A stretch of DNA of 41,328 nt from Nocardioides pelophilus (GTDB lineage: Bacteria; Actinomycetota; Actinomycetes; Propionibacteriales; Nocardioidaceae): the NCBI RefSeq assembly GCF_014180685.1, contig NZ_JACEHF010000020.1, positions 1 to 41,328 on the forward strand, in the 5' to 3' direction. The position numbers and the translations under genes were made by a program. Of the stretch, positions 35 to 9,023 are shown piece after piece. The notes under the pieces were generated by a model. The model was given only the letters and a program-made list of their open reading frames with translations, made no database searches and was not told the DNA's origin. Each line of letters begins with the position of its first letter. The stretch's first letter is position 1.

Positions 35-502
35 GTGACCGGACTCCTGATCCTCGCCCTGGCTGCGCTCGCCGCGGTCGGGTTCGGCCTCCACCGACGC
101 CGGGTCGACGGCCGCTTCGTCGCGCACCGCGACGCCAGCCCCAGCACGTGGGACCACGTCGCCGCGGCCGCGCCGTCCGCCCTGCCGGGGGAGCGAGCCA
201 CGCTCGTGCAGTTCTCCTCGGCGTTCTGCGCGCCGTGCCGCACCGCCCGTGTCGTGCTGTCCGACGTCGCCACCCAGGAGGACGGCGTCCGCCACGTGGA
301 GATCGACGCCGAGCAGCACCTCGACCTCGTGCGGGCGCTCGACGTACGACGCACGCCGACCACCCTGATCCTCGACGCGGGCGGGCACGAGCTGCTCCGC
401 GCCGCGGGGGCGCCGCAGAAGCAGCAGGTCCTCGCGGCCCTGCGCGCACCGCAGGTCGAGGAGGTCGCGCAGCGACCGTCACGAGACCGGAGGTCCGCGT
501 GA
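35..502 (+). CDS. Membrane-anchored thioredoxin-like protein
   Basis: This 155-residue protein has a hydrophobic N-terminal anchor (about residues 2-19), then a thioredoxin fold with the redox motif CAPC at residues 65-68 and the cis-proline signature RTPT (Pro108). It is probably a thiol-disulfide oxidoreductase facing outside the membrane. It overlaps the next gene (a DUF4395 protein) by 4 bp (GTGA), a pairing seen in many actinobacteria, so the two probably work together. An oddity: residues from about 140 to 152 are encoded by a copy of the dispersed palindromic repeat (454-488), so the natural C-terminus has been replaced or lengthened by repeat-encoded residues. The start is GTG at 35; the window begins just upstream, so an earlier start cannot be excluded. 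Confidence 0.85.
   Translation: MTGLLILALAALAAVGFGLHRRRVDGRFVAHRDASPSTWDHVAAAAPSALPGERATLVQFSSAFCAPCRTARVVLSDVATQEDGVRHVEIDAEQHLDLVRALDVRRTPTTLILDAGGHELLRAAGAPQKQQVLAALRAPQVEEVAQRPSRDRRSA
454..488 (+). repeat. Single palindromic repeat (family 1) inside the thioredoxin gene
   Basis: This 35-bp copy is the same sequence that forms the array at 6703-7258. Its core GGTCGC-gca-GCGACC is a perfect 6-bp stem with a 3-base loop. It is read in frame as VEEVAQRPSRD and ends 11 bp before the start of the next gene. Confidence 0.9.
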
Positions 503-5770: not shown

Positions 5771-6690
5771 GCCCCCTGCTCGACCTGCCCGGCGCCGTCG
5801 CCGGTGACGGCATCGACGCGCCGGTCGCCGCTCACTACGGCTCGCTGTACGGCGAGCAGCGCGCCCTCGCCGCGGGGGAGGGGTTCGTCGACCTCTCCCA
5901 CCGGGACGTGGTGCGCATCAGCGGCCCGGACCGGCTGACCTGGCTCCACTCGCTCACGACCCAGTTCTTCGAGGGGCTCGAGCCCGGCGTCTGGACCCAG
6001 GCGCTCGTGCTCAGCCCGCAGGGCCACGTCGAGCACGCCTTCGCCGGCGTCGACGACGGCGAGTCCTTCACCGCGCACACCGAGCCCGGCACGGCTGCCG
6101 CTCTGGTCACCTTCCTCGACCGGATGCGGTTCCTGATGCAGGTCGAGGTCGCCGACGTCACCGCCGACATCGCGGTGGCCTGGCGACCGTCCGGCAAGTA
6201 CGACCTGGTGCCGCGCGACCAGCTGCGCGCGTACGCCGAGGCCGCCGGCCCGGCTGCGGGGCTCTGGGCCTTCGAGGCACTCCGGATCGAACGCGGGGAG
6301 CCGCGCTTCGGTATCGACACCGACCACCGCACGATCCCCAACGAGGTCGGCTGGATCGGTCCGGCCGTCCACCTCGACAAGGGGTGCTACCGCGGCCAGG
6401 AGACGGTCGCCCGGGTCCACAACCTCGGCCGCCCCCCGCGCCGCCTCACCCTCCTCCACCTCGACGGCTCGGAGAACCGCCTCCCGGCGGGCGGCGCCGA
6501 TGTCACCGACGCCGGCGGCAAGGTCGTCGGCCGGGTCGGCTCGTCGGCCCGCCACCACGGGCTCGGCCCGATCGCGCTCGCCCTGCTCAAGCGCAACCTC
6601 GCGACCGACACACCCCTCCTCGCCGACGGCCTCTCCTCGGCCCAGGAGATCCTCGTCGACCCCGAGGTCGGCCTCCACTTCCGCCGCTGA
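5767..6690 (+). CDS. ygfZ: YgfZ/GcvT-like folate-binding protein
   Basis: The protein has 307 residues. The signature KGCYRGQET (the K-G-C-Y-x-G-Q-E motif with the key cysteine) identifies YgfZ/IBA57-type proteins, which use a GcvT-like fold and tetrahydrofolate to support repair or assembly of certain Fe-S enzymes in the cytosol. FVDLSHRDVVRISGPDRLTWL near the N-terminus is also typical. It is the last gene of the nitrobindin-Fur-YgfZ operon; its stop is 12 bp before a long palindromic repeat array. Confidence 0.9.
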   Translation: MSPLLDLPGAVAGDGIDAPVAAHYGSLYGEQRALAAGEGFVDLSHRDVVRISGPDRLTWLHSLTTQFFEGLEPGVWTQALVLSPQGHVEHAFAGVDDGESFTAHTEPGTAAALVTFLDRMRFLMQVEVADVTADIAVAWRPSGKYDLVPRDQLRAYAEAAGPAAGLWAFEALRIERGEPRFGIDTDHRTIPNEVGWIGPAVHLDKGCYRGQETVARVHNLGRPPRRLTLLHLDGSENRLPAGGADVTDAGGKVVGRVGSSARHHGLGPIALALLKRNLATDTPLLADGLSSAQEILVDPEVGLHFRR

Positions 6691-6702
6691 CCCCGGCACC
6701 CC

Positions 6703-7258
6703 GGTGGTCGAGGAGGTCGCGAAGCGACCGTCACGAGACCCCGCCACCCCGCTGGTCGAGGAGGTCGCGCAGCGACCGTCACGAGACCCCGCCACCCCGG
6801 TGGTCGAGGAGGTCGCGCAGCGACCGTCACGAGACCCCGCCACCCCGCTGGTCGAGGAGGTCGCGCAGCGCCCGCCACGAGACCCCGCCACCCCGCTGGT
6901 CGAGGAGGTCGCGCAGCCCCCGGTGGTCGAGGAGGTCGCGCAGCGACCGTCACGAGACCCAAGGTGGTCGAGGAGGTCGCGCAGCGACCGTCACGAGACC
7001 TCCGACCCCGGTGGTCGAGGAGGTCGCGCAGCGACCGTCACGAGACCCCGCCACCCCGGTGGTCGAGGAGGTCGCGCAGCGACCGTCAAGAGACCCCGCC
7101 ACCCCGGTGGTCGAGGAGGTCGCGCAGCCCCCGGTGGTCGAGGAGGTCGCGCAGCGACCGTCACGAGACCCAAGGTGGTCGAGGAGGTCGCGCAGCGACC
7201 GTCACGAGACCCCCGACCCCGGTGGTCGAGGAGGTCGCGCAGCGACCGTCACGAGACC
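6703..7258 (+). repeat. Array of 13 palindromic repeats (family 1)
   Basis: Thirteen head-to-tail copies of a 38-bp unit start at 6703, 6751, 6799, 6847, 6895, 6922, 6963, 7010, 7058, 7106, 7133, 7174 and 7221. Eleven are full length; the copies at 6895 and 7106 are cut after the left stem arm. Most are joined by the same 10-bp linker CCGCCACCCC, others by shorter linkers. Each full unit has a GGTCGC-gca-GCGACC hairpin. The stretch from 6895 on is repeated from 7106 on with a constant offset of 211 bp, including the truncated copy and the CAA joint, so the array grew by segmental duplication. Variation is low: GAAG in copy 1, CCCGCC in copy 4, AAGAGACC in copy 9. Confidence 0.95.
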
Positions 7259-7593
7259 TCCGTTGGTTCGGCGCCCGGCTCGCCAGGCTTGAGGGCGCCG
7301 CGGTCCCTGCGTGCGCTCCAACTGCGGCTGGCAAGGTCGGACAGGTCCTCGAACCTGCCCTCGATCAACGCGATCCGTTTGGCGCGGCTCCAGCCCTGCA
7401 CGCGCTTCTCGAACAGGAAGGCGTCGAGCACCCGCTGGAACTCAGCGGCCCAGACCAGGCGGACCGGCCGTCGGCGTCGGGTGTAGGCGGCCCCGAGGCC
7501 CTCGTTGTGCTCGGCGACTCTTCGCGCGAGATCGATGGTGCTCCCGACGTAGAAGGAGCCGTCCGCGCATTCGACGATGTAGGTCCATGGCAT
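7249..7593 (-). CDS. GIY-YIG single-domain endonuclease
   Basis: This 114-residue protein is a stand-alone GIY-YIG domain (YhbQ/UPF0213-like): WTYIVECADGSFYVGST holds the paired GIY and YIG elements, LARRVAEHN has the catalytic-type Arg, and FLFEKRVQGW carries the metal-binding Glu. Such proteins cleave DNA; biological targets of the small ones are mostly unknown. The last codons (EVS and the TGA) are supplied by the end of the thirteenth palindromic repeat, so the gene reads directly into the array. Two palindromes lie just upstream of the ATG (7611-7639), and an opposite-facing repeat cluster lies beyond them. Confidence 0.9.
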   Translation of the reverse strand: MPWTYIVECADGSFYVGSTIDLARRVAEHNEGLGAAYTRRRRPVRLVWAAEFQRVLDAFLFEKRVQGWSRAKRIALIEGRFEDLSDLASRSWSARRDRGALKPGEPGAEPTEVS

Positions 7594-7610
7594 TGAGCGA
7601 GGATGCGGTG

Positions 7611-7639
7611 CCGCTCCGACGGAGCGGGTCGGCGCCGAC
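7611..7639. promoter_or_regulatory. Two adjacent palindromes upstream of the GIY-YIG gene
   Basis: CCGCTCC-gac-GGAGCGG (7611-7627) is a perfect 7-bp hairpin, followed directly by the 12-bp palindrome GTCGGCGCCGAC (7628-7639). They lie 18-46 bp before the nuclease start codon and could be operators or a 5' leader structure. Confidence 0.4.
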
Positions 7640-7688
7640 GTTGCCGATGTGAGGCGTTCCGCGTCAGCGGGGGTTGTGGACGGTTAGT

Positions 7689-7945
7689 GGTCTCGTGACG
7701 GTCGCTGCGCGACCTCCTCGACCAACGGGGGTTGGCGCGACTTCGTCGGCGTCTGGGGGTGGCGGGGTCTCGTGACGGTCGCTGCGCGACCTCCTCGACC
7801 AACGAGGTTGGGGCGACTTCCTCGACCAACGGGGTGCCAACTGACGGGGGTCTCGTGACGGTCGCTGCGCGACCTCCTCGACCTTCGGGGGTTGGCGCGA
7901 CCTCCTCGACCAACGGGGTTGGCGCGAGCCTCGACCGCCGGGGAT
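7689..7945 (-). repeat. Second family-1 repeat cluster, opposite orientation
   Basis: Full copies in reverse orientation start at 7689, 7766 and 7849; partial copies that keep only the right part (GCGAC..CCTCGACCAACGGGG) lie near 7813, 7895 and 7921. The linkers here are longer and more varied than in the array on the other side of the nuclease gene. The stretch 7594-7970 has no gene; these repeats and the palindromes at 7611-7639 account for most of it. Confidence 0.9.
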
Positions 7946-7970
7946 GGCCGGGGGCCGTTCGACCGAAGGG

Positions 7971-9023
7971 TCAGGGGACGTCTTCCGGCTTGGGGAGCCG
8001 GTCGATCTTGTTGTCCTTGAGGTAGTCCTTGAACTCGTCCTGCGAGATCGCGGCCATCAGCTCGCGGGACTTCTCGATGTTGAGCAGGACGATGCTCTGG
8101 CCGTCGGCGGAGGTGCCGGTGCCGTCGGTGTAGGCGGTCATCCACTCGACCTCGCCGGCGCCGCGGCGGATCACGTCGAACCCGAGGTCGCGGATCTCGT
8201 CGTTGGTGAAGTCGTCGTCGAGGACCAGCAGCTTGCCGAGGTCGCCGATCAGGTTGGTGACGGTGAGCGGGTTGATGCGGGTGCCGGTGCGGGTGACCTC
8301 GAAGAGCACGGTGCGCAGGAAGTTCTGCTGCCGGTCGATCCGGTCGAAGTCGCCACCGGGGAGCGTCTTGCGCTCGCGGACGTACTCGAGCGCCTCCTCG
8401 CCGTTGAAGTGCTGGGTGCCGCCGTCGGCCGTCTCGAGGTCGACGCCGCCGATGGTGTCGGTGATGTCCTTGAAGCCCTCGAAGTCGACCACGGCGACGT
8501 GGTCGATGTAGATGTCGAGGGTGTTCTCGAGGGTCTCGACGAGGAGCTCGGGCCCGCCCCAGGAGAACGCCGCGTTGAGCTTGGCCTCGCCGTGACCGGG
8601 GACGTCGACCCAGGAGTCGCGGGGGAAGGAGACGACCTGGCTGTTCTGGTGGTCCTCGTCGAGGTGCCAGATCATCATCGTGTCGCTGAGCAGGCCGGTG
8701 TCGCCCTCCTGGAGCCGCTCCCGGACGTCCGTGCCGCGTCCGTCGACCCCGACGAGCAGCACGTTGAGCGCTTCCTTCGGCTGGGTGCGGTCGGGGCGGT
8801 CGTCGCGCTCGAAGTCGGCGTCGAACCGTGGGATGTCGTCGATCTTGCTGTTGAGCGACCACACCCAGGCGCCGATGCCGACCGTCAGGACGAGGGCCAG
8901 GGCGACGAGGATCGTCAGCGCCTTGTGGCGCCGGATGAAGCCGGGTGCCGCGGCTCGATGGCTGGTCGACGCGGTCGGCTCCGACGTGGGGTCTTCGGTC
9001 GGAGCGTCTTCGCGCGGATCCAC
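7971..9023 (-). CDS. LytR-CpsA-Psr (LCP) family cell-wall ligase
   Basis: The protein has 350 residues: a short cytoplasmic N-terminus, one membrane span (about 34-56), then an extracellular LCP domain from about residue 86. Visible signatures are NVLLVGVDGRG, the LSDTMMIWHLD strand, SFPRDSWV with the conserved Arg, KLNAAFSWGGPELLV, DTIGGVDL and the GGDFDRIDRQQNFLRTV segment with the Arg-Asp pair that binds pyrophosphate. LCP enzymes transfer lipid-linked polymers (teichoic acid, arabinogalactan, capsule) to peptidoglycan. It is divergent from a large glycosyltransferase gene. The start is GTG 9023. Confidence 0.93.
   Translation of the reverse strand: MDPREDAPTEDPTSEPTASTSHRAAAPGFIRRHKALTILVALALVLTVGIGAWVWSLNSKIDDIPRFDADFERDDRPDRTQPKEALNVLLVGVDGRGTDVRERLQEGDTGLLSDTMMIWHLDEDHQNSQVVSFPRDSWVDVPGHGEAKLNAAFSWGGPELLVETLENTLDIYIDHVAVVDFEGFKDITDTIGGVDLETADGGTQHFNGEEALEYVRERKTLPGGDFDRIDRQQNFLRTVLFEVTRTGTRINPLTVTNLIGDLGKLLVLDDDFTNDEIRDLGFDVIRRGAGEVEWMTAYTDGTGTSADGQSIVLLNIEKSRELMAAISQDEFKDYLKDNKIDRLPKPEDVP

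Follow-up and report, generated by a model that had tools for sequence, protein, structure and literature searches.

Outward-facing hairpin repeats frame a small GIY-YIG nuclease gene in Nocardioides: a probable nuclease-site pair

The window analysed here, a stretch of 41,328 nucleotides from Nocardioides pelophilus, carries the gene of a small GIY-YIG nuclease, located between two open reading frames and flanked on both sides by copies of a palindromic repeat of class A (Table 1). The downstream copies are direct and register-aligned. A full 36-mer with zero to two mismatches recurs eleven times among them (starts at 6705, 6753, 6801, 6849, 6924, 6965, 7012, 7060, 7135, 7176 and 7223), two truncated copies lie near 6895 and 7106, and a 211-base duplication at 97% accounts for part of the array. 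On the upstream side, half copies of the repeat sit between and beyond three full ones. In both arrays the GGTCTCG end faces the nuclease gene, and the hairpins therefore point outward. An earlier note on this DNA had described thirteen direct repeats beside the gene, reverse copies on its other side and a 114-residue GIY-YIG protein encoded between them, all of which is borne out. It had also described a nuclease framed by inverted arrays. The framing is confirmed, with the amendment that the downstream array is not separate from the gene, as its innermost repeat supplies the last 10 bases of the coding sequence, TGA stop included.

Table 1. Positions of the nuclease gene and class A repeats in the window and, preceded by a locus handle, of the framed DUF222 genes in the same genome.
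Feature	Position	Strand	Remark
Class A hairpin repeat array, 13 copies (11 full, 2 truncated)	6692..7258	-	downstream of nuclease, pointing away
Innermost downstream hairpin	7223..7258	-	overlaps nuclease gene end at 7249-7258
GIY-YIG nuclease, 114 aa, single domain, UPF0213-like	7249..7593	-	PF01541 E 2.5e-17
Innermost upstream hairpin	7689..7724	+	95 bp before nuclease start codon, pointing away from gene
Second upstream hairpin	7766..7801	+	
Third upstream hairpin	7849..7884	+	1 mismatch
Further dispersed copy of class A repeat	453..488	-	1 mismatch
Framed DUF222 copy	L006: 6086-7678		
Framed DUF222 copy	L007: 6710-8304		
Framed DUF222 copy	L008: 234-1810		
Framed DUF222 copy	L009: 1518-3099		
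Framed DUF222 copy	L369		

The repeat is abundant in the genome as a whole. With up to three mismatches allowed, the 36-mer has 117 + 121 occurrences in 4.64 Mb (343 contigs), and its reversed control has none; clustered arrays also form elsewhere, away from the nuclease. Folding predictions give an imperfect hairpin for the unit, whichever strand is taken. A CRISPR-like array was considered, given a unit spacing of about 48 bases in places, and was rejected because the bases between the repeat cores are near-identical too and because the same repeats occur at many other places in the genome. No match was returned by an Rfam scan of positions 6500 to 8100, by PADLOC, or by a query of viral contigs for exact copies of the class A hairpin. 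A bias of the hairpins with respect to replication strand was also rejected, on one genome (G056: 61 events, best split 36 against a shuffled mean of 37.4). A comparable local array occurs in a relative (L141, G034:C33:316651-317008), where seven tandem class T hairpins at 53-base spacing directly follow the nuclease gene.

GIY-YIG is the sole domain found in the nuclease, with PF01541 spanning residues 1 to 72 of 114, and the size fits UPF0213-like proteins (about 90 to 115 residues). The closest solved relatives by sequence are UPF0213 proteins, namely 1zg2 (BH0048; E 5.8e-14) and 1ywl (E 2.7e-10), which also rank first and second in a Foldseek search with the nuclease model. PHROGs and NCBIfam gave no match for the nuclease. 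The AlphaFold2 model, built from 26 sequences, has a confident core (pLDDT 95-98 over residues 1-80). It resembles the catalytic domains of SLX1, UvrC and I-TevI with Z up to 7.6, a range that could reflect a common arrangement only; VIA-align places SLX1-type chains above UPF0213, within the tied range. Y5, Y15, R25 and E62 are invariant in the 26 sequences and are the putative catalytic Tyr, Tyr, Arg and Glu of the active site. At one related locus (L071), the nuclease frame continues through several repeats into a C-terminal tail of repeated GFRDGAGAPPQPPSS-like units, so that repeats can be translated. Broken or partial nuclease genes (L139, L158, L159, L160, L163 and L164) keep hairpins on one or both sides, and the flanks thus outlast the gene.

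Framing by outward hairpins extends across the genus. Relatives of the nuclease are present in 72 of 118 Nocardioides genomes, which together provide 112 loci, some of them fragments; the window and a second nuclease of the same genome (L009) are included, and one locus of genome G099 is left out. When the motif is required to have complementary bases at positions 1 and 4, an outward hairpin lies on both sides of 87 of the 112 loci and on one side of 19. The six unframed loci are L091, L104, L126, L152, L161 and L165, of which L161 and L165 are fragments. Across the 112 loci, the first downstream hairpin lies a median of 16 bases past the stop codon, and the first upstream hairpin a median of 81 bases before the start codon.

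Control placements and neighbouring genes behave differently from the nuclease. Among the first 81 loci, a relaxed motif based on the repeat ends finds hairpins on both sides at 64, on one side at 14 and on neither at three, compared with 3, 102 and 1515 of 1620 random placements. A strict motif finds nuclease genes framed on both sides at 51 of 81 loci and on one side at 18, and the corresponding figures for neighbour genes are 0 and 27 of 626. A motif-free comparison leads to the same contrast: an inverted match between the flanks scores at least 18 at 55 of 80 nuclease loci (one locus being omitted for a short flank) versus 2 of 2400 placements, a score also reached by 1 of 618 neighbour genes. 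The inverted-repeat test and the ends-based motif superseded an early position-weight scan, which had fixed on one class seen in 17 of 81 loci. Inward-facing copies are found near the nuclease as well, with at least one at 40 of the 81 loci.

The two hairpins at a locus agree in their ends far more than in their full sequence. They share the same end class at 83 of 87 loci (shuffle maximum 28) and are identical throughout at only five of the 87, so these are not the fixed identical terminal inverted repeats of insertion sequences. The conserved ends have the form GGTYTCG-A/T-x ... x'-CTCRACC. In a set of 138 distinct framing repeats chosen without requiring pairing, positions 9/-8 are paired in 126 (shuffle maximum 65), as G-C, C-G or T-A; positions 4/-4 are paired in 136 (shuffle maximum 90) and positions 1/-1 in 124 (shuffle maximum 105). 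Kinship alone can beat such shuffles, but three pair types at one position across several clades would be hard to obtain other than by base pairing of the ends. The inner stem is variable and often imperfect: the fold falls below the 5th percentile of its own shuffles in 54 of the 138 repeats, and the median z for the whole repeat is -0.81. The framing hairpin is very short in one nuclease clade (L132, L133, L140, L145, L148 and L151), at 19 bases (GGTCTCGACAAGCTCGACC with variants), and is perhaps a minimal site.

Ordinary bidirectional terminators, or structures at the mRNA ends of the flanking genes, would also fold and lie close to stop codons, as these hairpins do just past the nuclease stop. 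Such structures would hardly be expected upstream of the start codon, where hairpins occur too, or to follow the class of the nuclease they flank, and no T run comes after the hairpins of the window. Taken together, these features make terminators a scarcely credible explanation.

The class of the repeats follows the nuclease at the level of phylogeny and within single genomes. Mapped on a nuclease tree of 99 columns, built by a quick method and with many weak forks, repeat class requires 24 changes against a shuffled mean of 65, and none of 200 shuffles is as low; nuclease phylogeny, which the earlier note had proposed to compare with repeat variants, does track repeat type. Two or more nuclease loci are present in 32 genomes; 24 of these have at least two labelled loci and differ in class at all of them, five repeat a class, and three have fewer than two labelled loci. 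The genome of the window is one of the 24, with the window nuclease framed by class A and that of L009 by class G, and it holds 265 class A copies, 151 class G copies and none of class T.

Copy number is likewise linked to the class of the nuclease. A nuclease is assigned the class of its own flanking hairpins, which means that a cognate genome can never have zero copies; copies within 2 kb of a nuclease locus were therefore subtracted, and only the excess elsewhere counts. In the 118 genomes, class A copies then have a median of 48 where a cognate nuclease is present (n=28), 1 where the nuclease is of another or unassigned class (n=44) and 0 where there is none (n=46). The medians are 17 (n=19), 0 (n=53) and 0 (n=46) for class T, and 44 (n=21), 0 (n=51) and 0 (n=46) for class G. 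Cognate genomes differ from those with a nuclease of another or unassigned class with p of 5e-9 (A), 1e-10 (T) and 3e-10 (G) in a test that ignores species relatedness. Before subtraction, the cognate medians are 51 (A), 23 (T) and 49 (G), and genomes with a non-cognate nuclease do not differ from nuclease-less ones (p 0.20, 0.36 and 0.61). Reversed-pattern controls are zero in every row among those listed. The link persists among the 35 genomes with at most four contigs (p 3e-4 for A, 2e-7 for T and 2e-5 for G), and the 11 of these that are nuclease-less have at most 13 copies of any class.

Exceptions to this link exist. One genome in a single contig (G012) has 55 class A copies and only a class G nuclease. 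Twelve of the 46 nuclease-less genomes (G004, G006, G008, G016, G020, G041, G048, G076, G096, G102, G109 and G112) hold at least 20 copies of a class; all are drafts of roughly 20 to 460 contigs. A Pfam GIY-YIG search of these twelve returned 27 matches, all in frames of at least 274 residues and none like the nuclease of the window. Either loss of the nuclease or missing assembly could account for them. In genome G099, the 65 class T copies called for a class T nuclease, and a fifth nuclease on contig 3, outside all counts, fits, having class T hairpins on both sides and the LAKKDF motif of class T (K-type). The pairing of nuclease and repeats proposed in the earlier note stands in part, and it largely withstands the refuting conditions that the note itself set. 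Nucleases seldom lack repeats (6 of 112 loci unframed), and repeats without a nuclease are few (median 0 in nuclease-less genomes for each class), with the twelve drafts and G012 remaining as exceptions.

It is conceivable that the nuclease is inert toward the repeats and merely sits where they pile up. Repeats do cluster in arrays elsewhere, as such a hot spot or hitchhiking account expects, but neighbour genes in the same loci are unframed on both sides (0 of 626), and the account gives no reason for class matching, end covariation or the specificity of copy number. We consider it very improbable. The outward framing, the matching of flank classes, the covariation of the repeat ends and the link between copy number and nuclease class together point to a matched nuclease-site pair with a RAYT/REP-like layout and an unrelated enzyme. 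It is probable that the GIY-YIG nuclease and the hairpins form such a cognate pair.

Residue 90 of the nuclease is a candidate for a recognition residue. Where position 9 of the repeat is G, residue 90 is R in 44 of 45 nucleases, the remaining one being gapped; where it is T, residue 90 is K in 20 of 20; and where it is C (33 nucleases), residue 90 is G (17), R (7), T (6) or S (3). In the AlphaFold2 model the residue opens the last predicted helix (90-97), and confidence falls off there. Since this link rests on one or two well-supported independent contrasts, below the reach of significance, it may reflect shared descent.

The same hairpins also enclose a second type of gene in this genome. 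One HNH/DUF222 subfamily (PF02720, with HNH matches in PHROGs; genes of the 13E12 type) has five full-length copies here, each with outward class A hairpins on either side. Four of them (L006-L009; 82-90% alike in DNA) were met through a search for repeat-bearing loci, and the fifth (L369; 78%) was chosen by protein alone; in protein, the five are 78-100% alike to L006. Four further copies, also met through repeats (L017, L018, L019 and L023), run off the end of a contig and have framing hairpins on the side that is present. Of the 13 DUF222 matches here, five were picked by protein alone: L369 is framed on both sides, and of the four more distant picks (54-57%) none is framed on both sides and two have one upstream hairpin. 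In four DUF222-like genes of genome G073 (C1:352955, 1053790, 1258936 and 1549648), a class G hairpin lies inside the matched frame, 574-580 bases from its low end, and another class G hairpin lies 200-280 bases upstream.

These genes raise the question of whether the HNH/DUF222 protein moves the repeats, with the GIY-YIG gene as one passenger. The five framed copies speak for this, as do relatives, in which 17 of 26 subfamily loci (one of the 26 being L338 of this genome) have an outward hairpin within 500 bp, usually upstream. The hairpins at DUF222 loci, however, are not of a single class (A then G at L340, G then T at L341), whereas those flanking the GIY-YIG gene match. Framing is also absent or one-sided in the distant copies, and 21 of 22 of the best general Pfam DUF222 matches are unframed, the other being framed on one side (22 analysable of 30 loci). 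Moreover, four genomes (G002, G018, G036 and G115) have 6-13 subfamily members yet none of the three repeat classes. Movement of the repeats by the DUF222 protein is therefore improbable, and the HNH/DUF222 gene is read as cargo or a favoured neighbour and not as the partner.

The position of the nuclease unit is shared by close relatives and rarely by others. Nuclease pairs with at least 80% identity have a neighbour gene in common in 32 of 43 cases, and pairs at 70-80% in 12 of 251; one pair at 92.7% (L130/L141) has no common neighbour within 4.5 kb. The left neighbour gene of the window is found in 29 other genomes with no nuclease or hairpin within 1.5 kb, although the right neighbour does not lie beside it there, so this only shows that the position is not shared. 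Such patterns fit a unit that relocates, or one that is frequently lost and then acquired anew, and do not by themselves demonstrate transposition. Among 1952 non-syntenic nuclease pairs, DNA matches mostly end inside the coding part and thus say little about cassette ends; a match extends as far as the upstream hairpin in 135 of 1839 cases and as far as the downstream hairpin in 114 of 1710. Some nuclease pairs stop at the hairpins (L062/L064). Between the DUF222 copies L006 and L009, the match stops 8 and 14 bases outside the hairpins, and other DUF222 pairs continue into arrays.

Similar framing is found beyond the genus. Among the best 80 of at least 581 relatives in a scan of named genomes, outward hairpins lie on both sides in 25 of 30 Nocardioides and 28 of 50 others, and on at least one side in 30 of 30 and 37 of 50, respectively. 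In the same 80, the inverted-flank score is at least 18 in 22 of 30 Nocardioides and 34 of 50 others, one of which (L259) scores through a run of N, versus 2 of 800 placements. The 50 others include Cryobacterium, Arthrobacter, Gordonia, Agromyces and Chloroflexota. Three relatives in Bacteroidota (L294, L300 and L301; Bizionia and Winogradskyella) have a frame of similar style built from another short inverted sequence, GGCTTCGACTACGCTCAGCC or close variants of it.

The most serious competing explanation starts from Ssn, reportedly a small, site-specific, single-stranded GIY-YIG nuclease whose cognate sequence is present in hundreds of copies. A guard of this kind would cut its site in single-stranded DNA that enters the cell. 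The dispersed copies would serve to mark or guide natural transformation, and they would be maintained by selection or recombination without being spread by the nuclease. A single-domain GIY-YIG protein with many dispersed cognate sites, as Ssn in Neisseria is reported to be, agrees with this explanation, as does the reach of similar framing into other genera and phyla. On its own, however, a guard leaves the two inverted framing copies and the tandem arrays unexplained, and we regard it as a real possibility that is nonetheless rather unlikely.

In the mechanism that we favor, the gene and its two outward hairpins would make up a single unit, in which a small GIY-YIG nuclease is accompanied by the sites that it recognises. 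The enzyme would most likely bind to the folded single strand of the hairpin through the conserved ends, tolerating many stems, and would then cut at the hairpin ends. Both recognition of folded single-stranded DNA and cleavage are suggested by the GIY-YIG fold, by analogy with RAYT and by the reported properties of Ssn. Dispersed sites of the same class would depend on their cognate nuclease over evolutionary time. Finally, cleavage may promote the copying of hairpins, and of segments bounded by them, into new locations, as RAYT/REP systems do; this last step is the least certain, and we put it a little short of an even chance. A broader proposal would make these units a second, HUH-independent class of REPtron across actinobacteria and beyond, in which the GIY-YIG nuclease reads the folded hairpin ends by a simple residue-to-base code (R90/G, K90/T) and drives the copying of hairpins and hairpin-bounded segments, the HNH/DUF222 gene being cargo. 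As a whole, this proposal is speculative and would more probably fail than hold in one or another of its parts.

Dispersed hairpin repeats are common yet poorly explained in high-GC genomes such as these. If every class relies on a small nuclease of its own, the origin, copy number and spread of the repeats become testable, and the many natural nuclease-site pairs, together with paralogues within one genome, can act as controls. The pairs are also a source of small nucleases whose predicted hairpin specificities differ.

Searches of the literature for the GIY-YIG/repeat pairing, Ssn, UPF0213 and the letters of the repeat found no paper on the pairing, in a coverage that omits most subscription journals. 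Nor did they bring up an account of inverted framing in which the ends match, of copy numbers specific to a class, of a link to residue 90 or of HNH cargo. The earlier note had known of no description of such a pairing, which is probably wrong given that the Ssn family has reportedly been published. That study, by Chenal, Veyrier and others in Nature Communications in 2025, is reported to cover Ssn in Neisseria and many homologues, each with its own sequences. The likeness to Ssn, as reported, lies in a high-copy dispersed cognate sequence, represented here by the 265 class A copies of this genome and the cognate medians of 48, 17 and 44. UPF0213 proteins, also called YhbQ-type, share the sequence family and the single-domain fold of the nuclease; 1zg2 and 1ywl are listed as hypothetical, with no function or repeat named. 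The HNH/DUF222 genes resemble the GIY-YIG gene in that these hairpins enclose members of one subfamily here. Unlike it, they encode a different nuclease fold, show no class matching and are mostly unframed in relatives.

The closest parallel in layout is with RAYT, or TnpA-REP, genes. In two descriptions, such genes are flanked by two palindromic repeats in inverted orientation, and REP elements have a conserved head and a palindrome kept by complementary changes, with flanks that may differ and many dispersed copies (PMC2817692, PMC8266576). The units described here are alike in having inverted palindromic flanks (both sides at 87 of 112 loci), paired ends, differing flanks and many dispersed copies. 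They differ in the enzyme, which is a GIY-YIG protein without a Y1/HUH (Transposase_17) domain, and in the head, which is GGTYTCG and not of the GTAG or CGTC type. Because the same layout is combined with an unrelated enzyme, the nuclease and its hairpins are REPtron-like in layout without being members of the RAYT family.
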